Of a stretch of 64,000 nt of DNA, positions 18,590 to 48,379 are shown one piece after another (position 1 is the first letter of the stretch; each line of letters starts with the position of its first letter). Made by a program: the position numbers and the translations under genes. Location: the NCBI RefSeq assembly GCF_002294995.1, contig NZ_NSGF01000009.1, positions 124,001 to 188,000 on the forward strand. The letters run 5' to 3'. The notes below the pieces were generated by a model. It did no database searches, was not told the origin of the DNA, and saw nothing but the letters and a program-made list of their open reading frames with translations. Source of the stretch: Mesorhizobium sp. WSM3860 (lineage in GTDB: Bacteria > Pseudomonadota > Alphaproteobacteria > Rhizobiales > Rhizobiaceae).

Positions 18590-18930
18590 AGAGGGAAGGT
18601 GGAGGTTTCTGTTGCCAGGTACCTCCGAACCCCGCCTAGAAGTGCGAACCGCTAGGACTTGATTTGAAGCGTTCGCGCCGCATTAAGCAGCGAGACGAGC
18701 TTCCGCATAGTTGTCGTTGGCAACTATAAGTTTAGCCCGATGACGGTGGTACAATGCCGGGCAAAAGTACGATCTTTACACCTTCGTCGATCCTATTTCG
18801 CCCCCAGCAAAAGCCGCTCCCTTTGGAAGAGCGGTTTTTGGTGGAGGCGCCGGGTACCGCCCCCGGGTCCGAACGGCTTATTGCATCGCCTGTTTATCGC
18901 CATAGTCGGTCAAGCCGACGAAGCGAATAT
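18590..18930 (-). ncRNA. ssrA: Circularly permuted (two-piece) tmRNA
   Basis: On the minus strand the tRNA-acceptor piece comes first and the coding piece second, the alphaproteobacterial order. The acceptor piece ends in CGCCTCCACCA, with the CCA at 18841-18839, preceded by a T-arm stem CCGGG/CCCGG. A 33-base spacer (18838-18806) folds into a hairpin. The coding piece starts GGGGGCGAAATAGGATCGACG at 18805, whose GGGGGCG pairs with CGCCTCC to make the acceptor stem. The reading frame at 18721-18683 encodes the degradation tag ANDNYAEARLAA and stop, with TAGTT just before the resume codon. The 3' end has a GGAGGT/ACCTCC hairpin (18626-18601) and a pyrimidine-rich tail. Outer ends are approximate. 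It rescues stalled ribosomes; tagged proteins go to ClpXP via SspB. Confidence 0.95.
18683..18721 (-). other. ssrA: tmRNA proteolysis-tag reading frame
   Basis: Twelve codons plus TAA inside the coding piece, translating to ANDNYAEARLAA. The C-terminal LAA is the ClpX-recognition end and the AND...Y part is the usual SspB-binding portion. Confidence 0.95.
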
Positions 18931-19125
18931 AGGGAGCGATCACGGAAAATGAAAGAGCCAAGTCGTGCTTGTCCCCTTAGCAAACTCGACAGCCGAGGGT
19001 TGACTTGCGCACTCACTCAATCGAAGCTCCGCCGGCGATGAGGAATATCCGACCTGGCGCACAAGTTGCGCGGCGCGCCACACGCCTCATCGATCGGATC
19101 CGTGGCGCCGACGAGGGGAAGTTTC

Positions 19126-38389: not shown

Positions 38390-38403
38390 ATAATTTGAAT
38401 TAT
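38390..38403. promoter_or_regulatory. Candidate LysR site ATAATT-TG-AATTAT
   Basis: Six-base inverted repeat with two-base spacer in the 110-base divergent region between lysR and tmpA. AT-rich dyads of this type are typical LysR binding sites. It overlaps the earliest possible tmpA frame and so supports the downstream start. Confidence 0.5.
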
Positions 38404-38469
38404 GCCTTCGGCAAGGACAGCATGCAATCGATTCCGCGGCGACGGCCCGAAGACGGGAGTTTCAGAAAC

Positions 38470-39621
38470 ATGCTGACGAGAGCAACCCTTGGCGACGAAG
38501 GACGAACGATAGCGCTTGGCTGGGACGACGGAACGTGCAGCCGCTTCCATGCCGTGTGGCTGCGCGACAACGCACTGGACAACAGGACGCGCAGCGCCGG
38601 CAACGGCCAGCGGCTGATCACCATTCTGGACATTCCGGCCGGGACACGAATCGGCGCGGCCTCGATCAAGAGCGAGGCGCTGGTGGTCACGTTCCTGCCT
38701 GAAGACAAGACCGTCAGTTTTCCCGCAAGCTGGCTTCGCGCCCATACTTACGACCGCGAAGAGAATCGGCAGCCCGGCTGGACGGGCAGCGACATTCGGC
38801 CGTGGACCAAGGCCACGATGCAGAGTTCGGTGCCGCGCGCGGCCTATCTTGAGGCCAGGCACGACAGGAATGTTCTGCGGCAATGGCTAACGGCGGTGCG
38901 GAGCTGTGGCTTTGCCATCATGGACGGTCTGCCGGCCGAATCCGGGGCATTGTGCAAGGTGGCCGACCTCTTCGGATACATCAGGGAGACCAATTACGGG
39001 CGCTGGTTCGAGGTGCGCGCCGAGGTCAATCCGAACAATCTCGCCTACACCAATCTCGGCCTGCAGGCGCATACCGACAATCCCTACCGCGACCCGGTGC
39101 CGACGCTGCAGATCCTGGCCTGCATCGAGAATACGGTGGAAGGCGGCGAATCCAGCGTCGTCGACGGGTTCGCGGTGGCGGCCGCGCTGCAGGCGGAGAA
39201 TTCGGAAGGCTTCCGGTTGCTTTCCTCCTTCCCGGCGCGCTTCGAATATGCCGGCTCATCGGGTGTGCGGCTGCAGTCGAAGCGCCCGATGATCGAACTC
39301 GGGCCCGATGGCGAGCTCATCTGCGTCCGCTTCAACAACCGCACGCTGGCGCCGACCGTCGACGTGCCGTTCGCCGAAATGGACGCTTACTACGCTGCCT
39401 ATCGCCGGTTCGCCGAACTGATCGAGGAACCGGCCTTCGAGGTGACCTTCAAGCTCGAGGCGGGCCAGTCCTTCATCGTCGACAACACGCGCGTCATGCA
39501 TGCGCGCAAGGCCTTTTCCGGCAGCGGCAAGCGCTGGCTGCAGGGCTGCTACGCCGACAAGGACGGCCTGCTGTCCACGCTGGCGGCAATCGAACACGAT
39601 TTCAGAGAGGCTGCCGAATGA
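38470..39621 (+). CDS. tmpA: Fe(II)/2-oxoglutarate dioxygenase, probable 2-(trimethylamino)ethylphosphonate hydroxylase (TmpA-like)
   Basis: 383 residues. gamma-Butyrobetaine-hydroxylase-type N-terminal domain (about 10-95, with [11 protein letters not shown]) and a TauD catalytic domain with iron ligands His201, Asp203 (LQAHTDNP) and His344 (RVMHARKAF). The Cys cluster that binds zinc in the N-terminal domain of butyrobetaine hydroxylases is replaced here (DNALDN). The pairing with a PhnZ-like HD oxygenase points to TmpA rather than carnitine synthesis. Start at ATG 38470 with GGGAG ten bases upstream. Overlaps tmpB (ATGA). The call is by analogy to Leisingera TmpA; a butyrobetaine or other substrate is possible. 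Confidence 0.72.
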
Positions 39622-40208
39622 ATCCGAATGAACTGAACACCGGCAACATCGTCGAGTTCATCGCGGACATCTTCGAGCGCCGCGGCGCGGAATCCTATCT
39701 CGGCGAGCCCGTCACCATGTCCGAGCATATGCTGCAGGGCGCGTGGCTAGCCGAGCAGGATGGCGCGCCGGAGGAGCTTGTGGCTGCGGCGCTGCTGCAC
39801 GACATCGGCCACTACACCAGCGAGTTCGGCACCTATTCGCCCGACGACATCGAGGACAAGCACCACGACGAGGCGGGCGGCGAGGTGCTGGCGCCCTTCT
39901 TTCCGCCGGTCATCGTCGAATGCGTCAGGCTGCATGTTGCGGCCAAGCGTTATCTCTGCGCCACCGATCCGAGCTATTTCGGCAAGCTGTCGCCGGCCTC
40001 GGTCCACACGCTGTCGCTGCAGGGCGGGCCGATGAGCGCAGAGGAGGTGGCGGAGTTCCGCAGCAATCCGTTCCATGAGGAAGCCGTGCGGGTGCGCATC
40101 TGGGACGAGGGTGGCAAGGTCGCCAACATGAAGACGCGCGCCTTTCGCGACTACGTGTTCTTGCTGGAGCGCGTGGTGGAAAAATTTGCGGCCCAAAGGG
40201 CGATGTGA
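39618..40208 (+). CDS. tmpB: HD-domain mixed-valence diiron oxygenase (TmpB/PhnZ-like)
   Basis: 196 residues. PhnZ-type ligand set by spacing: Tyr27, Glu30, His37, His61-Asp62 and His65 (LLHDIGHY), His83 (KHHDEA), His106 and Asp163 (RIWDEGGK). PhnZ splits the C-P bond of 1-hydroxy-2-aminoethylphosphonate; TmpB does the same on the trimethylated analogue, releasing glycine betaine and phosphate. The start overlaps the tmpA stop, so the two are made together. The family call is firmer than the exact substrate. Confidence 0.8.
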
Positions 40209-40220
40209 TCTCAGATCACA
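40204..40220. promoter_or_regulatory. Palindrome TGTGATCTCAGATCACA at the end of tmpB
   Basis: Perfect dyad (eight-base arms, one central base) overlapping the tmpB TGA. It resembles a CRP/FNR-type site but with seven instead of six bases between TGTGA and TCACA. It could act on the downstream ilv promoter region 170 bases away or as a transcript end. Confidence 0.35.
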
Positions 40221-40390
40221 GGCGCTGCTCGAGGTGTCGCCGCGCCGCCGAAGCCAGAGATGTTTTCTTGGCAACATCGTTGCGTCTCGACATACGCGGC
40301 AAAATGCGTTGCCGGCAACCCGGCGAGGCGTGTGGTGCTGGCGGCATGAACAATCCGCGCCGCTGAACAATGAGATCGACAGATTGGCCG

Positions 40391-40419
40391 TTGACAGCGG
40401 CGCGGAACCGACCTTATTG
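40391..40419 (+). promoter_or_regulatory. ilvIH promoter
   Basis: TTGACA (40391-40396), a 17-base spacer and TTATTG (40414-40419). Expected transcription start about 40426, only about three bases before the leader ATG. Confidence 0.6.
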
Positions 40420-40428
40420 TCCGCGCCC

Positions 40429-40479
40429 ATGAAAACAGCACTCATTCTCGTAGGCTGGCGCGTGGGCAAGGCGGTGTAA
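40429..40479 (+). CDS. ilvL: ilv leader peptide (16 aa, near-leaderless)
   Basis: ATG at 40429 encodes MKTALILVGWRVGKAV and TAA at 40477. Nine of 16 residues are Ala, Leu, Ile or Val, with Leu-Ile-Leu-Val in a row, the usual control codons for a branched-chain attenuator. It sits between a good promoter and a terminator upstream of ilvI. Translation would begin close to the RNA 5' end, as known for the trp leader of Sinorhizobium. Confidence 0.72.
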   Translation: MKTALILVGWRVGKAV

Positions 40480-40513
40480 CCGCCGGGCGAAAACCTCCCA
40501 TGCGCATCCCACA

Positions 40514-40537
40514 GGCTCCCTCGGGGGCCTTTTTTAT
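40514..40537 (+). terminator. ilvIH attenuator terminator
   Basis: GGCTCC with GGGGCC in a CTCG tetraloop stem (one G-T pair), followed by T6. It lies 35 bases after the leader stop and 64 bases before ilvI. A separate GGCGGT/ACCGCC hairpin spans the leader stop (about 40469-40483) and may act as pause structure. Confidence 0.7.
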
Positions 40538-40600
40538 TGCCCAAAACCCAACTAAACGACCAGCAAATCGCCAGACGGCGAACAGTACGGGACCAGACCG

Positions 40601-42382
40601 ATGAGCAACGGACAGAACGAGCGGCGCGAAATGACGGGTGCCGAAATGGTGGTGCAGGCGCTGAAGGACAACGGCGTCAAGCACGTCTTCGGCTATCCGG
40701 GCGGCGCGGTCCTTCCGATCTATGACGAGATCTTCCAGCAGGATGAGGTCGAACACATTCTGGTCAGGCACGAGCAGGGTGCCGGCCATGCGGCGGAAGG
40801 CTATGCGCGCTCGACCGGCAAGGCCGGCGTGCTGCTGGTCACGTCCGGTCCAGGCGCAACCAATGCCGTCACGCCGCTGCAGGACGCGCTGATGGATTCC
40901 ATCCCGCTGGTGTGTCTCACCGGTCAGGTGCCGACTTCGCTGATCGGCTCCGACGCCTTCCAGGAATGCGACACCGTCGGCATCACGCGCCCCTGCACCA
41001 AGCACAATTGGCTGGTGAAGGACGTCAACGAGCTCGCCGCCACCATCCATGAGGCCTTCCATGTCGCGACCACCGGCCGCCCCGGCCCGGTTGTGGTCGA
41101 CATTCCCAAGGACGTGCAGTTCGCCAAGGGCATTTACGTGCCGCCGCAGACAGCGCCGCGCACCAGCTATCAGCCGAAGGTGCAGGGCGATCTGGAGAAG
41201 GTGAAGGCTGCCGTCGAGCTGATGGTCGGTGCCAAAAAGCCGATTATCTATTCGGGCGGCGGCGTCATCAATTCCGGTCCGGAAGCCAGTCATCTGCTGC
41301 GCGAGCTGGTCGACCTCACCGGCTTCCCGATCACCTCGACGCTGATGGGCCTCGGTGCTTATCCGGCATCGGGCAAGAACTGGGTCGGCATGCTCGGCAT
41401 GCATGGCACCTACGAAGCCAACATGGCCATGCATGACTGCGACGTGATGATCTGCATTGGCGCGCGCTTCGACGACCGCATCACCGGCCGGCTGACCGCG
41501 TTCTCGCCGAACTCGAAGAAGATCCATATCGACATCGATCCGTCCTCGATCAACAAGAACGTCCATGCCGACGTGCCGATCCTGGGCGATGTCGGCCGCG
41601 TGCTGGAAGATCTGGTGCGGCTGTGGCGGGCGACCGCCAAGGCCGACAAGAAGGCGCTCTATCCATGGTGGGAGCAGATCGCGAAATGGCGCGCGCGGGA
41701 CTCGCTCGCCTATAGGATGAACAACGACGTGATCATGCCGCAATATGCGATCCAGCGGCTCTATGCGCTGACCAAGGACATGGACACCTACATCACCACC
41801 GAAGTCGGCCAGCACCAGATGTGGGCGGCTCAGCACTATCACTTCGACAAGCCCAACCGCTGGATGACCTCGGGCGGCCTGGGCACGATGGGATATGGCC
41901 TGCCGGCGGCGCTCGGCGTCCAGATCGCTCATCCGAACGCGCTGGTCGTCGACATCGCCGGCGACGCTTCGGTGCAGATGACGATGCAGGAGATGAGCTC
42001 GGCGGTGCAGTACGAAGCGCCGATCAAGATCTTCATCCTGAACAACCAGTATATGGGCATGGTGCGCCAGTGGCAGCAGCTGCTGCACGGCAACCGGCTG
42101 TCGCATTCCTACACCGAGGCGATGCCGGATTTCGTCAAGCTGGCGGAAGCCTATGGCGGCCACGGCATACGCTGCGACAAGCCGGACGAGCTGGATGACG
42201 CGATCCGCGAGATGATCTCGGTGAAGAAGCCGGTGCTGTTCGACTGCCGCGTGGCGACTTTGGCCAACTGCTTTCCGATGATCCCGTCGGGCAAGGCGCA
42301 TAACGAGATGCTCCTGCCTGACGAGGCGACCGACGAGGCGGTGGCCAACGCAATCGACGCCAAGGGCAGGGAACTGGTGTAG
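40601..42382 (+). CDS. ilvI: Acetolactate synthase, large (catalytic) subunit
   Basis: 593 residues. Converts pyruvate (or pyruvate plus 2-oxobutyrate) to acetohydroxyacids. Catalytic Glu in VRHEQGAGHAAEGYARSTGK, central FAD domain, and the TPP motif GDASVQMTMQEM ending in NNQYMGM. ATG 40601. First gene of ilvIH; expression likely set by the upstream attenuator and leader peptide. Confidence 0.97.
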   Translation: MSNGQNERREMTGAEMVVQALKDNGVKHVFGYPGGAVLPIYDEIFQQDEVEHILVRHEQGAGHAAEGYARSTGKAGVLLVTSGPGATNAVTPLQDALMDSIPLVCLTGQVPTSLIGSDAFQECDTVGITRPCTKHNWLVKDVNELAATIHEAFHVATTGRPGPVVVDIPKDVQFAKGIYVPPQTAPRTSYQPKVQGDLEKVKAAVELMVGAKKPIIYSGGGVINSGPEASHLLRELVDLTGFPITSTLMGLGAYPASGKNWVGMLGMHGTYEANMAMHDCDVMICIGARFDDRITGRLTAFSPNSKKIHIDIDPSSINKNVHADVPILGDVGRVLEDLVRLWRATAKADKKALYPWWEQIAKWRARDSLAYRMNNDVIMPQYAIQRLYALTKDMDTYITTEVGQHQMWAAQHYHFDKPNRWMTSGGLGTMGYGLPAALGVQIAHPNALVVDIAGDASVQMTMQEMSSAVQYEAPIKIFILNNQYMGMVRQWQQLLHGNRLSHSYTEAMPDFVKLAEAYGGHGIRCDKPDELDDAIREMISVKKPVLFDCRVATLANCFPMIPSGKAHNEMLLPDEATDEAVANAIDAKGRELV

Positions 42383-42459: not shown

Positions 42460-43032
42460 ATGAACGCACAGCTCCAGCCGACCGGCTCCGCCTATTTCAT
42501 CGCCAAGGAAACCGAGAAGCCGGAAACGCACACGCTTTCCGTGCTGGTCGACAACGAACCGGGCGTGCTTGCCCGCGTCATCGGCCTGTTCTCGGGGCGC
42601 GGCTACAACATCGAAAGCCTCACGGTGTCCGAGACCGAGCACGAGAAGCATCTGTCACGCATCACCATCGTGACGCGTGGCACGGCGCATGTGCTGGAGC
42701 AGATCAAGCACCAGCTCGAGCGCATCGTGCCGGTGCACCGCGTGGTCGATCTCACCGTGCGCTCGCACGAGCTCGGCCAGGAGCGGCCGCTGGAGCGCGA
42801 GCTTGCGCTTGTCAAGGTCGCCGGCAGCGGCGACGCCCGCGTCGAGGCCCTGCGATTGGCCGACGCCTTCCGCGCTTCGGTCATCGATGCCAACACCGAG
42901 CATTTCATCTTCGAGATCACCGGGAAGGGCTCGAAGCTCGACCAGTTCATCGCCATCATGAAGCCGCTCGGCCTGGTCGAGATCTGCCGCACCGGTGTCG
43001 CAGCCATGAACCGCGGCCCGCAGGGCATGTAG
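42460..43032 (+). CDS. ilvH: Acetolactate synthase, small (regulatory) subunit
   Basis: 190 residues with an N-terminal ACT domain (THTLSVLVDNEPGVLARVIGLFSGRGYNIESLTVS) that binds valine, and an ALS_ss C-terminal domain. Confers feedback inhibition on IlvI. 77 bases after ilvI. Confidence 0.96.
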   Translation: MNAQLQPTGSAYFIAKETEKPETHTLSVLVDNEPGVLARVIGLFSGRGYNIESLTVSETEHEKHLSRITIVTRGTAHVLEQIKHQLERIVPVHRVVDLTVRSHELGQERPLERELALVKVAGSGDARVEALRLADAFRASVIDANTEHFIFEITGKGSKLDQFIAIMKPLGLVEICRTGVAAMNRGPQGM

Positions 43033-43148
43033 GCGCGCCACCACCGCTCCGACTGCTTCGAATTCTTCTCGCTGGTCCGGCAGTCGCCCGTCCGTGGCTT
43101 TTGCGTCTGCCGAAAAAGGACAATATAACTGACCTATCCGGGGAGGAT

Positions 43149-43748
43149 ATGATGTCCGTCAATGCGTTCCTTGCACTCTTGGTCTATGCCTTCGTGACGT
43201 CGATCACGCCGGGGCCTAACAATCTCATGCTGCTGGCCTCCGGCGTCAATTTCGGGATCGTCAGAACGGTTCCGCACATGCTGGGCATCAGCATCGGCTT
43301 TCTGGTTCTGCTGCTGGCCGTCGGCTTCGGACTCGGCGCGGTGCTGACAGCGTTTCCGGCGCTGCACACGGCGCTTAAAATCGCCGGCGCCGCCTACCTG
43401 CTCTATCTCGCCTGGAAGATCGCCATGTCGCGCTCGATGAGCGACAAGGGCGGAGCGGAGGCGCGGCCGATGCGCTTCATCGATGCCGCCGCGTTCCAAT
43501 GGGTCAATCCCAAGGCATGGGTGATGGCGATTACCGCCATGGCCGTCTACACCAATCCGGATCATCCGTTCGTCTCGGTGGCGCTGATTTCGATCGCCTT
43601 CACCATCGTCAACCTGCCCAGCGTTTCCGTGTGGGCCGGGTTCGGCACCGCGCTGCGCGGCTTCCTTTCAGATCCCGTGCGCCTGAAATGGTTCAACATC
43701 GGAATGGGTCTGCTGCTCGCAGCTACGCTCTGGCCGATGCTGCGTTAA
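43149..43748 (+). CDS. LysE family translocator
   Basis: 199 residues, six hydrophobic segments; AFVTSITPGPNNLMLLASGVNFG is the LysE/RhtB signature. GGGAGGA at 43141 places the start at ATG 43149 or, better spaced, 43152. Exporter of an amino acid or derivative, substrate unknown. It follows ilvH on the same strand but at a distance of 116 bases. Confidence 0.87.
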   Translation: MMSVNAFLALLVYAFVTSITPGPNNLMLLASGVNFGIVRTVPHMLGISIGFLVLLLAVGFGLGAVLTAFPALHTALKIAGAAYLLYLAWKIAMSRSMSDKGGAEARPMRFIDAAAFQWVNPKAWVMAITAMAVYTNPDHPFVSVALISIAFTIVNLPSVSVWAGFGTALRGFLSDPVRLKWFNIGMGLLLAATLWPMLR

Positions 43749-43785
43749 GGGTCTTTCAGGCTGACCGCCACGGCACGTCAGCCGG

Positions 43786-43804
43786 CTGCACAACCATTGT
43801 GCAG
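43786..43804. promoter_or_regulatory. Palindrome CTGCACAA-CCA-TTGTGCAG
   Basis: Perfect eight-base arms and three-base spacer in the gap between lysE and the RND genes. Best explained as an operator for a TetR- or MarR-class repressor of the efflux pair; no such regulator gene is adjacent. Confidence 0.5.
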
Positions 43805-43946
43805 TGCACATTAAATCTTCGTAATGCCGCGTTTTGGCCCTTTTCCGCCAAAGCCTTGTCCTATCTATTCGGCGAAATTCGCGGCAACGGCCGTGAAATG
43901 AGCTGAGAATAGACCACCGGTTTCGGCGTGTCGGATAGAGGGCCTG

Positions 43947-45224
43947 TTGTCGATGCGCGGAAAAATCGCCTTTACAGTCGTTGCTCTGGCCTGCCTTGCA
44001 GGGGCCGGCCTTTATCTGTCGCCCACCACGATGGGCAGGGTGCAGCAGCTGATCTCCGGCCAGCAGGCCGACGCAGCCGGCGCCGATACGTCCAAGGCAT
44101 CGGGCAGCCAGAAGGGCGGCGCGGGCGGCGCGCGTTCGGCCTCGATCGTTTCGGCAACCGCGACGACAGCCGATTTTCCGATCCGCCGCTACGCAATCGG
44201 CTTCGTCTCCTCGCCGTCCGTGGTCAGCGTGAATGCCCGTGTCTCCAGCCAGATCGTGTCGATCGCGGTGAAGGACGGGCAAATGGTCAAGGCCGGCGAT
44301 CTTCTCTTCTCGCTCGATGACCGCGCGCTGAAGGCGCAGCTTGCCAAGGACCAGGCGACGCTCGTCAAGGACCAGGCCCTGCTGGTGAGCGCCACGGCGG
44401 ATCTTCAGCGCGCCAAGGACCTTGTCGCCAAGCAGGCTGGCACGCAGCAGACTTACGACCAGGCACTGGCGGCGCAGAAGGCCGCGGCCGCTACCATCGA
44501 TGCCGACAAGGCGACGATCGATGCCGATACGGTCCAGTTGAGCTACGCGACCATCAGCGCGCCCATCTCAGGCAGGCTGGGAGCGGTCAACGTCTCGGTC
44601 GGCGATCTCGTCACCACCAGCAACGGCTCAAGCACCACGACGCCGCTTGTGACCATCACGCAGATGGACCCGCTGCAGGTGAATTTCACTCTGCCGGAGA
44701 GCAACCTTGCTTTATTGCACAAGGCGTTGGCGAGCCCACAGCAAGGGGACGTGACGCTGACCAAAGACGGCGATCCCACGCCGATCGGCAAGGGCACACT
44801 CGATTTCGTCGATTCCAGCGTCGACACCGCCTCCGGCACCATCGCCACGCGGGCGAGCATACCGAACTCGGATCTTTCGCTTTGGCCGGGGCAGTATGTG
44901 AACGTCATCCTTGATGCCGGCACCATGCCGCAAATGACCTCGGTGCCGACGGTCGCGGTGCAGCCGAGCCAGAAAGGTCCCTTCGTCTACGTGGTCAAGC
45001 CGGACAACACGGTCGAGATGCGGCCGGTGCAGGTGGCGCTGACGGAGGGCGATAACAGCGCCATCAGCCAAGGCCTCAAGCGCGGCGAGAAGGTGGTGGT
45101 CGAAGGCCAGACAAGGTTAAAGGACGGCGCGGCGGTGCATGAAGGCAAGACCGCGAGCAACAGCGGCGATCAAAATTCGCCTAAGGTCGCGGAAGCCGAC
45201 AAGGCCGGCGAGGCGCGCCCATGA
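43947..45224 (+). CDS. RND efflux periplasmic adaptor (membrane fusion protein)
   Basis: 425 residues from TTG 43947 (ATG 43953 is equally possible). N-terminal signal/anchor (RGKIAFTVVALACLAGAGLYL), then lipoyl halves (VNARVSSQIVSIAVKDGQMVKAGDLLF; ATISAPISGRLGAVNVSVGD) around a coiled coil and a beta-barrel. Couples the inner-membrane RND pump to an outer-membrane channel. Overlaps the pump gene by four bases (ATGA). No outer-membrane factor gene follows. Confidence 0.9.
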   Translation: MSMRGKIAFTVVALACLAGAGLYLSPTTMGRVQQLISGQQADAAGADTSKASGSQKGGAGGARSASIVSATATTADFPIRRYAIGFVSSPSVVSVNARVSSQIVSIAVKDGQMVKAGDLLFSLDDRALKAQLAKDQATLVKDQALLVSATADLQRAKDLVAKQAGTQQTYDQALAAQKAAAATIDADKATIDADTVQLSYATISAPISGRLGAVNVSVGDLVTTSNGSSTTTPLVTITQMDPLQVNFTLPESNLALLHKALASPQQGDVTLTKDGDPTPIGKGTLDFVDSSVDTASGTIATRASIPNSDLSLWPGQYVNVILDAGTMPQMTSVPTVAVQPSQKGPFVYVVKPDNTVEMRPVQVALTEGDNSAISQGLKRGEKVVVEGQTRLKDGAAVHEGKTASNSGDQNSPKVAEADKAGEARP

Positions 45225-48200
45225 TTTCCGAATTCTGCATACGAAAGCCCGTCGCCACGCTGCTGATGTCGTTCGCCCTCGTGCTGGGCGGACTGTTCGC
45301 TTACAAGTTCCTGCCGGTTGCGGCGCTGCCCAGCGCGGAGTTCCCGGTGGTGAATGTCTCGGCCCAACTGGCAGGCGCTTCGCCGGAGACCATGGCGACC
45401 TCGGTCGCGACGCCGCTGATCAAGCAGTTCGCAACCATTGCCGGCATCGATTCGATTTCGACAACCAACTCGCTGGGCCAGACCTCGATCGCCATCCAGT
45501 TCGTGCTTAACCGCGACATCGACGCGGCCGCCGCGGACGTTCAGGCAGCCATCGCACGCACGCAAAAATCGCTGCCGCCGCAAATGACGGCGCCGCCGAG
45601 CTATCGCAAGGTCAATCCGGCCGATGCGCCGATCCTTCTGATGTCGCTGGTCAGCGACACCGTACCACTCACCGACCTCGACGCATTCGCCGAAAACGTC
45701 ATCTCGCCCTCGCTATCGACTATCGATGGCGTTGCGCAGGTTTCGATCTACGGACAGCAAAAATATGCGGTGCGCATCCAGATCGATCCGACCGCGCTCG
45801 CCGCGCGCGGCATCTCGATCGATCAGTTGCAGACGGCCGTGGCCTCGGCCAACAGCAACACGCCGCTCGGCGTGCTGCAGAACGACAAGCAGCAGCTGAC
45901 GATCACGGCCAACACTCAGCTGATGAATGCCGCCGATTTTTCCAACATTATCATCGCCACCAAGAATGGCCATCCGGTGCGGCTGGGCGAGGTCACGCGC
46001 GTTATCGACTCGGTCGAAACCACGACGACGGCGAGTTTTTATGATGGCACGCGCGCCATCATCATGGCCGTGCAGCGCCAGCCCGACGCCAATACGGTCG
46101 ACGTCGTCGACAAGGTCAAGGCGATGCTGCCGTCCTTCCAGGACCAGATGCCGGCTGCCGCGAGCATCAAGCTGCTCAACGACCGTTCCACCTCGATCCG
46201 CCAGGCCGTCGACGACGTGCAGTTCACGCTGCTCCTGACCATCGCGTTGGTGGTGATGGTGATCTTCGTGTTCCTGCGCCGCGTCACGGCAACGATCATC
46301 CCCGCGGTGGCCGTGCCGATCTCGCTGATCGCGACCCTCGGCGCGATGTTCCTGTTCGGCTTCTCGATCGACAACATCTCACTGATGGGTCTGACGCTGG
46401 CCGTCGGCCTCGTCGTCGACGACGCAATCGTCATGCTCGAAAACATCTTCCGCCACATGGAAGAGGATGGGCTGTCGGCTTTCGACGCCGCGCTCAAGGG
46501 CGCGCGCGAGATCGGCTTCACCATCATATCGATTTCTATTTCGCTGGTGGCGGTGTTCATCCCCGTGCTTCTGATGGGCGGCGTCATCGGTCGCATCTTC
46601 AACGAATTCGCCGTCGTGGTGACGGTCGCCATCCTGGCGTCGATGTTCGTGTCGCTGACCCTGACGCCGATGCTATGCTCGCGACTTTTGTCGGTGACCA
46701 AGGCTGATCGCGAGGCGCATGCTGACGGTCACAGACATGATCTCATCACGCGTGGCTATGACTGGATCCTGAGCTTCTGCCTCCGCCACACCTTCCTGGT
46801 GTTCCTGGTCTTCGTCGGCACCGCGGCGGCCTCTGTCTGGCTGATCCAGGTTTCGCCGAAGGGCTTCTTCCCGCAAGAGGACATAGGCCAGATCTCGGTA
46901 ACCACCATCGCCCGCCAGGACATCTCCTTCGACGCGATGACGAAGCTGCAGGGCCAGGTTGCCAACGTCTTCGCGCATTCGCCTTACGTCGATCACGTCG
47001 CGTGGTCGGTGGGCAGCGGCAACAATGCGCTCAATCAGGGACAGTTGTTCGTGCAACTGAAGGACAAGGACAAGCGTCCCGACATAGAGAAGGTGCTTTC
47101 CGATTTGAGGCGGCAGCTGTCCAGCGTCGCCGGCATCGAAACCTATATGCAACCGGTGCAGAATCTCAGGCTCGGCTCGCGCTCCTCGGCCAGTGCCTAT
47201 CAGCTGGTCGTCCAAGGCCTCGATAACGGCGCGACGGACGCTTGGGCGCAGAAATTGAATGACGCCATGGCCGCCGATCATAAATTCTTCACCGACGTCA
47301 CGAGTGATCTGCAGAACAACGCGCTGCAGGCGTCGCTGGTCGTCGATCGGGACAAGGCCGCTCAGCTCGGCATCGACACAGACACGCTGCGCTCGGCGCT
47401 CTATGGTGGCTTCGGCACCGATCAGGTCTCAACCATTTTCGGCTCGGCCGACAGTTACGAGGTCATCACCGAGCTCGATCCGAAGATCGAATGGTCACCG
47501 GAGCGCATGCTGGCCATTCAGGTGAGAACGGCGAGCGGCAGCCTCGTGCCCCTCGGTGCGTTCGCCCGGGTCGATCGCACGGCCGGCGCCTTGACGGTCA
47601 ACCAGCTTGGCCAGTTGCCGGCGGTGACGATCTCCTACAACCTGCCGCAGGGCGTCTCGCTCGGCGACACGGTGACCCGCATCAACCAGCTCAAGGACCA
47701 GATCGGCATGCCGCAGGCGATCGGCACCACCTTCGCCGGCACGGCCAAGACGTTCCAGGATTCGCTTGCCAACCAGGGGCTGCTGATCGGGGGCGCAATT
47801 CTCACAATCTACATTGTGCTCGGCATGCTCTACGAGAGCTTCATCCATCCGCTGACCATTCTGACGGGCCTGCCATCGGCGGTACTGGGCGCGGTGGTTG
47901 CATTGCGGCTCTTCGGCATGGACCTGTCGGTCATAGCCGTGATCGGCATCCTGATGCTGATCGGCATCGTCAAGAAAAACGGCATCATGATGATCGACGT
48001 GGCGCTCGAGTTGAGGCGCGACGGCATGTCGGCGGTGGACTCCATCCACAAGGCCTGCCTGATGCGTTTCCGGCCGATCATGATGACGACGCTGGCGGCC
48101 TTGATGGGCACGTTTCCGATCGCGCTCGGCACCGGCGCCAGCGCCGAGCTGCGCCAGCCGCTCGGCGTTGCGGTGGTCGGCGGCTTGCTCGCATCCCAGG

Positions 48201-48379
48201 CGCTGACCCTGTTCGTCACACCGGTCATCTATGTCTATTTCGAGCATTTCTCCGGGTGGCTGCTCAGCTTCACCTCGAAGAAAAGCCGGCCGGACCTGCA
48301 TGCAATCGAGCCGGTCGAGCAGCGCTCGCTCTTCGACCCCGGAGAAAATGCCGAACCGAAAAAGTTGGCGGCCGAATAG
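45221..48379 (+). CDS. RND efflux transporter permease (HAE-1-like)
   Basis: 1,052 residues, standard for AcrB/MexB-type pumps. Twelve membrane helices, two large periplasmic loops. SIDNISLMGLTLAVGLVVDDAIVMLEN contains the Asp-Asp proton relay of helix 4; GIVKKNGIMMIDVALE and RPIMMTTLAALMGTFPIALG mark the second half. The sequence is of the MdtBC/CusA-distant AcrB-like multidrug branch, but the substrate cannot be read. Coupled to the adaptor. Confidence 0.93.
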   Translation: MISEFCIRKPVATLLMSFALVLGGLFAYKFLPVAALPSAEFPVVNVSAQLAGASPETMATSVATPLIKQFATIAGIDSISTTNSLGQTSIAIQFVLNRDIDAAAADVQAAIARTQKSLPPQMTAPPSYRKVNPADAPILLMSLVSDTVPLTDLDAFAENVISPSLSTIDGVAQVSIYGQQKYAVRIQIDPTALAARGISIDQLQTAVASANSNTPLGVLQNDKQQLTITANTQLMNAADFSNIIIATKNGHPVRLGEVTRVIDSVETTTTASFYDGTRAIIMAVQRQPDANTVDVVDKVKAMLPSFQDQMPAAASIKLLNDRSTSIRQAVDDVQFTLLLTIALVVMVIFVFLRRVTATIIPAVAVPISLIATLGAMFLFGFSIDNISLMGLTLAVGLVVDDAIVMLENIFRHMEEDGLSAFDAALKGAREIGFTIISISISLVAVFIPVLLMGGVIGRIFNEFAVVVTVAILASMFVSLTLTPMLCSRLLSVTKADREAHADGHRHDLITRGYDWILSFCLRHTFLVFLVFVGTAAASVWLIQVSPKGFFPQEDIGQISVTTIARQDISFDAMTKLQGQVANVFAHSPYVDHVAWSVGSGNNALNQGQLFVQLKDKDKRPDIEKVLSDLRRQLSSVAGIETYMQPVQNLRLGSRSSASAYQLVVQGLDNGATDAWAQKLNDAMAADHKFFTDVTSDLQNNALQASLVVDRDKAAQLGIDTDTLRSALYGGFGTDQVSTIFGSADSYEVITELDPKIEWSPERMLAIQVRTASGSLVPLGAFARVDRTAGALTVNQLGQLPAVTISYNLPQGVSLGDTVTRINQLKDQIGMPQAIGTTFAGTAKTFQDSLANQGLLIGGAILTIYIVLGMLYESFIHPLTILTGLPSAVLGAVVALRLFGMDLSVIAVIGILMLIGIVKKNGIMMIDVALELRRDGMSAVDSIHKACLMRFRPIMMTTLAALMGTFPIALGTGASAELRQPLGVAVVGGLLASQALTLFVTPVIYVYFEHFSGWLLSFTSKKSRPDLHAIEPVEQRSLFDPGENAEPKKLAAE

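Follow-up and report, generated by a model that had tools for sequence, protein, structure and literature searches.

A probable near-leaderless attenuator before ilvIH in Mesorhizobium, and related copies of its Atu_C8 element before transporter genes

How might a rhizobial ilvIH operon, whose products make valine, leucine and isoleucine, be controlled by the short stretch of DNA that precedes it? The window that we analyzed is a 64,000-nucleotide stretch of Mesorhizobium sp. WSM3860, and the segment under study occupies its positions 40391 to 40537 (Table 1). It had been proposed, from the letters alone, that this segment is a branched-chain leader peptide and attenuator. On inspection of the sequence, the −35/−10 pair, the leader open reading frame (ORF), the hairpin with its run of six Ts and ilvI all lie where the original prediction put them. 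We find that the segment very probably is a cis-acting ilvIH leader working by ribosome-sensing attenuation, as had been suggested. The window element itself is an ordinary one, and its interest lies in the use of the same cassette before transporter genes outside the window.

Directly 5' of the ilvIH promoter (38395–40208) lie a dioxygenase gene and then a gene for an HD-domain protein. The dioxygenase scores 550 bits with the TmpA model (cut-off 400) and 507 with the gamma-butyrobetaine dioxygenase model (cut-off 415), and we assume that the two genes are perhaps a TmpA/TmpB-like pair. A LysE-type exporter and an RND efflux pair (adaptor and permease) follow ilvH at 43101–48379. Elsewhere in the window is an alphaproteobacterial tmRNA (18598–18958, minus strand; RF01849, 306 bits), which the permuted tmRNA model matches too.

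Table 1. Features of the ilvIH leader region, in window coordinates.
Feature	Position	Strand	Evidence or remark
−35 box TTGACA	40391..40396	+	promoter scan; TTGAC position kept across family loci
−10 box TATTGT	40415..40420	+	18 bp spacer from −35 box
Inferred RNA start, leaderless or 1–2 base leader	40427..40429	+	promoter spacing
Leader ORF, 16 codons, MKTALILVGWRVGKAV	40429..40479	+	TAA stop 40477–40479; family-wide coding evidence
Rfam RF02502 (Atu_C8) match	40431..40545	+	94.5 bits, gathering 50
Control codons CTC ATT CTC GTA (Leu-Ile-Leu-Val)	40441..40452	+	such runs are enriched in rare codons
Long stem, 5' strand GCGCGUGGG	40458..40466	+	9 pairs with 40497–40505
Inner hairpin GGCGGU-GUA-ACCGCC, contains stop codon	40470..40484	+	fold and covariation
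Long stem, 3' strand CCCAUGCGC	40497..40505	+	fold and covariation
Intrinsic terminator, 7-pair hairpin AGGCTCC-CTCG-GGGGCCT 40513–40530, T6 40530–40535	40513..40535	+
ilvI, acetolactate synthase large subunit	40601..42382	+	NCBIfam 1211 bits vs cut-off 974
ilvH, acetolactate synthase small subunit	42460..43032	+	NCBIfam 226 bits vs cut-off 119

The leader belongs to a known, widespread alphaproteobacterial switch before ilvIH. It is an ordinary member of the Rfam family RF02502, named 'Rhizobiales sRNA Atu_C8', and matches all 122 model positions (1–122) with an E value of 3.4e-19. At E ≤0.001, RF02502 was found in 100 of 199 genomes of the order, giving 103 matches. Note that it exceeds Rfam's own cut-off in just 28 of the 199 under strict filters, so most other matches rest on their E value and place. 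That place is consistent: 101 of the 103 lie about 2–143 bp 5' of ilvI on the same strand, and the remaining two precede a major facilitator superfamily (MFS) transporter gene. We conclude that this 'sRNA' family is mainly an ilvIH leader. Conservation of the leader, which the original prediction had made a test of its reading, is thereby borne out. Within the window's own family, RF02502 occurs in 381 of 394 genomes. Among the 13 genomes that lack it, 10 are ≤2.0 Mb, and the others are 2.4, 3.4 and 4.7 Mb and 77–81% complete. A class-wide search with our own model, scoring 14 candidates per genome, gave 5 of 240 genomes, a count that is not evidence of absence. A second weak match in the window's own genome (24.8 bits, L167) was rejected from its surroundings. 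Taken with the family match, the conserved peptide, promoter spacing and hairpins across the 103 elements place the layout beyond chance.

Transcription is predicted, from promoter spacing, to begin at or just before the leader ATG. The promoter (40391–40420) agrees with the consensus at 10 of 12 positions; one such site was found, against 0.1 expected in shuffled sequence. Eight bases separate the end of the −10 box (40420) from the ATG at 40429–40431. Positions 40426–40428 are all C, and the first purine 6–9 nucleotides past the −10 box is A40429, so a leaderless start at the A of the ATG fits equally with a three-base leader. The near-leaderless start that had been predicted is supported by comparison, and its three-base leader fits no better than initiation at the ATG itself. 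No Shine-Dalgarno (SD) sequence was found before the window's leader ORF.

Comparison among elements supports the near-leaderless arrangement. We searched for TTGAC within 100 bases 5' of the chosen start codon in the 103 order-survey elements. The box lies near, at −33 to −42, in 22 elements, all with ATG and only 2 with an SD-like tetramer; it lies at −48 to −75 in 71 elements (59 ATG, 12 GTG), with an SD-like tetramer in 49; and 10 have neither spacing. All eight order-survey elements from the window's family (f1), the window included, are of the near class, with TTGAC at −36 to −38. So are all 29 further family loci (L104–L132), with the box at −36 or −37 and the ATG at the same position; CCC stands directly 5' of the ATG in 17 of them. 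The uniform use of ATG in the near class agrees with the start-codon rule that the consulted part of PMC3616915 reports for leaderless Sinorhizobium meliloti RNAs. Across lineages, the two modes of initiation, one near-leaderless and the other longer-spaced and often SD-led, provide a natural experiment on ribosome–polymerase coupling.

The short ORF carries codons for the end products of the pathway, with a Leu-Ile-Leu-Val run in the window. A start codon (ATG in 88, GTG in 15) and an ORF with a run of at least two Ile, Leu or Val codons are present in 103 of 103 elements. The run reaches three or more codons in all but one of the 103, a length seen in 4.8% of shuffles (50 made per element and read by the same picker); the picker favors the longest Ile/Leu/Val run in real elements and shuffles alike. 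Codon choice within the runs is unusual. With the ilvI portions of these loci as the reference, GTA makes up 64% of Val codons in the runs versus 2% in ilvI, CTT 57% versus 8% of Leu codons and ATT 59% versus 15% of Ile codons. In the matched part of the window's own ilvI, none of 41 Val codons is GTA. Outside the run, the peptide differs widely among families. These comparisons strongly support coding constraint on the leader ORF, and they uphold its description as a branched-chain leader peptide.

Downstream of the control codons, a nine-pair long stem (40458–40466 with 40497–40505) encloses an inner hairpin and is followed by the terminator. We aligned 87 of the 103 elements for covariation. 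In the long stem, 93.3% of cells are paired and two-sided changes occur at seven of nine pairs. For the inner hairpin, in which the window's register is shifted in the alignment, four pairs were counted, with 81.2% of cells paired and two-sided changes at all four; for the terminator hairpin, 88.3% of cells are paired. Taken together, stem, inner hairpin and terminator reach 89.3% pairing, and their covariation score is 0.414 versus 0.228 for shuffles and 0.09–0.13 for slid alignments. Two-sided changes occur at 13 pairs, which is no excess over the 12.4 of shuffles. Folded as a single sequence, the window element beats its shuffles (z −2.6, with 1 of 200 equally good). The terminator is unremarkable taken alone, because two terminator-like sites were found within 40100–40800 where 0.7 were expected. 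It is nevertheless conserved, and it sits between the leader ORF and ilvI (40601), as the original prediction had it. Other pairings were set aside: the outermost pairs of the Rfam RF02502 structure were judged not general, as was a pairing between the AUG region and the U tract in the single-sequence fold (codon region versus U tract, rank 0.49, which is chance). Right after the T run (window 40536–40541), the 103 elements share the motif R-T-T-G-C-C, conserved at 77–93% per position; two segment pairs were tried, and neither gave it a pairing partner.

The original prediction expected folding to reveal an antiterminator pairing, and here our results diverge from it. We cut the nascent RNA before the terminator 3' arm and calculated the energy gained when the 5' arm pairs upstream. 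For Escherichia coli K-12 with the ribosome at the last control codon, the gain was a strong 9.3 (trp), 9.5 (thr) and 8.4 (leu) kcal/mol. The window gains just 0.1 to 0.6 kcal/mol, whichever of four stall codons and of three footprints is modeled (mononucleotide-shuffle rank 0.93–1.0). Across the family, the median gain is 2.3 kcal/mol with a mean rank of 0.74, and none of the 103 elements reaches a rank ≤0.05. Note that shuffle rank is a blunt measure: E. coli thr itself ranks at 0.08, and when the ribosome stalls on the first Leu codon of leu, the gain is 4.2 kcal/mol with a rank of 0.29.

Swap and covariation tests gave the same picture. The duplex between the stem 3' strand plus linker and the terminator 5' arm is less stable within its own sequence (−5.19) than with swapped (−5.99) or shuffled (−7.30) partners. 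The three real helices do score better in their own sequence (swap ranks 0.10–0.34), whereas 11 other segment pairs rank at 0.47–0.67, about chance or worse. Swapping is a weak test for segments that do not vary on either side. The ten top covarying column pairs all fall within the stem, the inner hairpin region or the terminator, and a pair joining the stem 3' strand to the terminator arm is absent from the 70 top-ranked column pairs. A stability test on full-length leaders with a stalled ribosome, in which the terminator was kept in 99% of the 103 elements, was abandoned because E. coli thr also retains its terminator at the energy minimum. Thus, neither folding, swapping nor covariation turned up a helix that would exclude the terminator on stalling, as the classical 1:2 / 2:3 / 3:4 scheme has it. 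The leader has the layout of an attenuator in which a classical 2:3 antiterminator was not found, which is absence of evidence and no proof of absence. The attenuation interpretation is right in kind and partly supported: the leader ORF, the control run and the terminator stand, and the antiterminator was not found. Its last step becomes a directly testable question.

A plausible sequence of events can nonetheless be drawn. A sigma70-like promoter would start the RNA at or just 5' of the AUG of the 16-codon peptide, and such near-leaderless initiation would let the ribosome track RNA polymerase closely. When charged Leu, Ile or Val tRNA is scarce, the ribosome would slow at CTC-ATT-CTC-GTA, just ahead of the long stem's 5' strand. 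With ample amino acids, it would reach the stop codon inside the long stem, and the terminator would end transcription; the short RNA thus set free, ~107 nucleotides in length, would be the 'Atu_C8 sRNA'. Comparison among elements establishes the promoter spacing, the coding constraint, the rare control codons, the stem, the terminator and the synteny with ilvI as shared sequence features; from these we infer leader translation, an amino-acid response, termination and readthrough.

How termination is relieved may differ from the textbook. Stalling might act through some other effect or factor, such as loss of the long stem, Rho/NusG or a stem-binding protein, with no alternative fold at all; we give this a little less than an even chance, and it is a variant of the cis-leader explanation, compatible with it. 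A strongly covarying stem adjoins the control codons, yet no mutually exclusive fold was found. Moreover, the stop codon at 40477 lies ~20 nucleotides 5' of the stem 3' strand at 40497, which would leave this strand free whether the ribosome has stalled or finished. Against this, folding tests may overlook kinetic, tertiary or non-nested pairings, and in some distant MFS leaders stem and terminator arm do overlap. Another account would give the hairpin the role of a constitutive partial terminator and the ORF no regulatory role. We consider it highly improbable, because the control run is biased in its codons, precedes the stem and is conserved in 102 of 103 elements.

The released RNA could instead be mainly a trans-acting sRNA, or its peptide could act in trans, with ilvIH control secondary. 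Rfam classes RF02502 as an sRNA, and S. meliloti rnTrpL begins at the trpL AUG and acts in trans according to the portion consulted of PMC7298713, an arrangement that looks alike here. However, 101 of the 103 copies in the order sit before ilvI, and the peptide outside its Ile/Leu/Val run varies widely between families. Synteny and a variable peptide fit a cis role better, and we regard a mainly trans role as unlikely. The cis-acting leader thus remains our preferred reading. With rnTrpL/peTrpL, the window shares a short ORF predicted to lie at the very 5' end, a terminator and the predicted release of a small RNA (PMC7298713, consulted in part), and its conserved promoter spacing fits an rnTrpL-like RNA start at the predicted position, 40427–40429; it differs in amino acids and gene, and its RNA start is predicted from the promoter.

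Other known systems resemble the window more or less closely. The E. coli trp, thr and leu operons have SD-led leader ORFs. They share with the window a control-codon leader peptide and an intrinsic terminator, but they have a strong 2:3 antiterminator and none was found in the window. RF02502 Atu_C8, a full-length match, has the same long stem, the same inner hairpin and the same terminator. Its Rfam description is that of a Rhizobiales sRNA, whereas we find it to be mainly an ilvIH leader with an ORF. Alphaproteobacterial ilvIH/ilvBN attenuators share the Ile/Val/Leu leader peptide, the terminator and the downstream ilvIH, and the window may differ from them in having no findable antiterminator and a start that looks near-leaderless.

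Branched-chain attenuation of alphaproteobacterial ilvIH is already published, and the general idea predates this work. Vitreschak and colleagues in 2004 reportedly predicted it for the single ilvIH operon of alphaproteobacteria. In the parts of the sources that we consulted, attenuation of Caulobacter ilvIH/ilvBN is described, with Tarleton et al. 1994 cited for ilvBN (PMC4117421); an S. meliloti 'ilvIH cis regulatory' element is listed, citing Vitreschak et al. 2004 (PMC2573895); and an 'ilvB leader peptide' of alphaproteobacteria is mentioned as previously described (PMC1273637). The main texts of S. meliloti Ribo-seq (PMC10117765) and transcription start site (PMC3616915) papers name no ilv gene, the consulted part of a rhizobial sRNA review (PMC7143759) mentions neither a leader peptide nor ilv, and PMC5913331 merely tabulates the RF02502 accession. 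Judged by titles and the opening of abstracts, with subscription papers mostly uncovered, no publication that our searches turned up equates RF02502 with the ilvIH leader or reports the MFS copies, a weak negative. Our survey ties the RF02502 'sRNA' family, the predicted attenuator and an MFS transporter family together.

Two RF02502 matches are present in 18 of the 394 family genomes. In 11 of them (G187, G376, G387, G399, G414, G442, G477, G489, G529, G537 and G561), the second copy lies 5' of an MFS gene, the match in G477 being weak (30.5 bits). With G127 of the order survey, the MFS copy is found in 12 genomes from seven genera and two families (MFS-linked copies: L032/L149, L007, L145, L147, L148, L154–L156 and L158–L161). 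Further MFS-linked copies are those at L168–L174 and L190. All 12 surveyed copies keep the TTGAC box, an ATG leader of 15–18 codons and the terminator (the L160 leader was identified by eye). Of the 12 peptides, nine carry either Val-Val-Val (read by eye in L160) or Ile-Val-Val/Leu-Val-Val. Examples of the cores are LVLVVV, MVVV and IVVV, and Ile-Ile-Ile-Val is found in L161. The L032 MFS protein scores 163 bits with the Bcr/CflA model, under the curated cut-off of 200.9, and more weakly with CmlA/FloR, so we term it Bcr/CflA-like only.

A profile built from seven of these MFS proteins detected at least 483 relatives among the genome contigs. Among the best 80 of these, eight have a match to our own model R1 directly upstream at E ≤3e-11: those of Rhizobium lusitanum, Mesorhizobium sp. 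WSM4311, Rhizobium sp. R634, R. sullae, two Rhizobiales isolates, Devosia ureilytica and one Devosia MAG. Five more distant loci (L176, L177, L178, L180 and L181) have a leader ORF and terminator by eye, with R1 at E >0.1 or no match. Three of their peptides contain at least three consecutive valines (MISLVVVRRKRRRAR, MKQIVVVVGERRLDR and MHLLNTVVVGARRPGR); L177 has just Ile-Val after its GTG start, and L176 just Val-Phe-Val. Inspection by eye of L175, L179 and L182–L184, also MFS relatives, found no such leader; L185–L209 were screened by script only, and L210–L247 by R1 only.

In the five distant leaders, the stem extends into the terminator 5' arm. In 17 of 20 settings, the upstream-pairing gain is 4.4 to 10.3 kcal/mol. 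The three exceptions, at 0 to 1.7, are L176, L180 and L181 with the ribosome on the last valine and a 13-base footprint; only 2 of the 20 settings attain a shuffle rank of 0.05. In these models, stem and terminator look mutually exclusive, which is suggestive at most. In the same test, the gain is 0 to 1.4 kcal/mol for L168 and 0 to 5.6 for L173, both closer MFS leaders, with no notable rank.

We lean towards the view that the ilvIH leader is a reusable cassette of promoter, near-leaderless and mostly valine-rich peptide, stem and terminator, and that in several alphaproteobacterial genera a complete copy has been placed before a Bcr/CflA-like MFS gene, and occasionally before an ABC exporter or a second ilvI. 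In this view, some more distant MFS relatives carry a valine-run leader whose stem overlaps the terminator arm. Moved before an MFS gene, the cassette would make that gene respond to valine shortage or stalled ribosomes, switching it on. If so, the MFS protein may be a valine or branched-chain importer misnamed as a drug pump, or alternatively an efflux pump responsive to compounds that inhibit branched-chain synthesis or translation. A tree of 56 elements, with support values left aside, did not separate one from several duplications giving rise to the MFS copies.

Second copies also precede other genes. In five genomes (G023, G260, G343, G503 and G570), the copy is 5' of a second, diverged ilvI. 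In G462, the copy (L157:1141-1260) is 5' of a 595-aa ABC-exporter-like gene, named by eye from its sequence, and in G549 it lies at a contig end. The copies before a second ilvI are L031/L146, L134, L137, L138 and L139, and the genes at L137 and L139 align to ilvI in two parts only.
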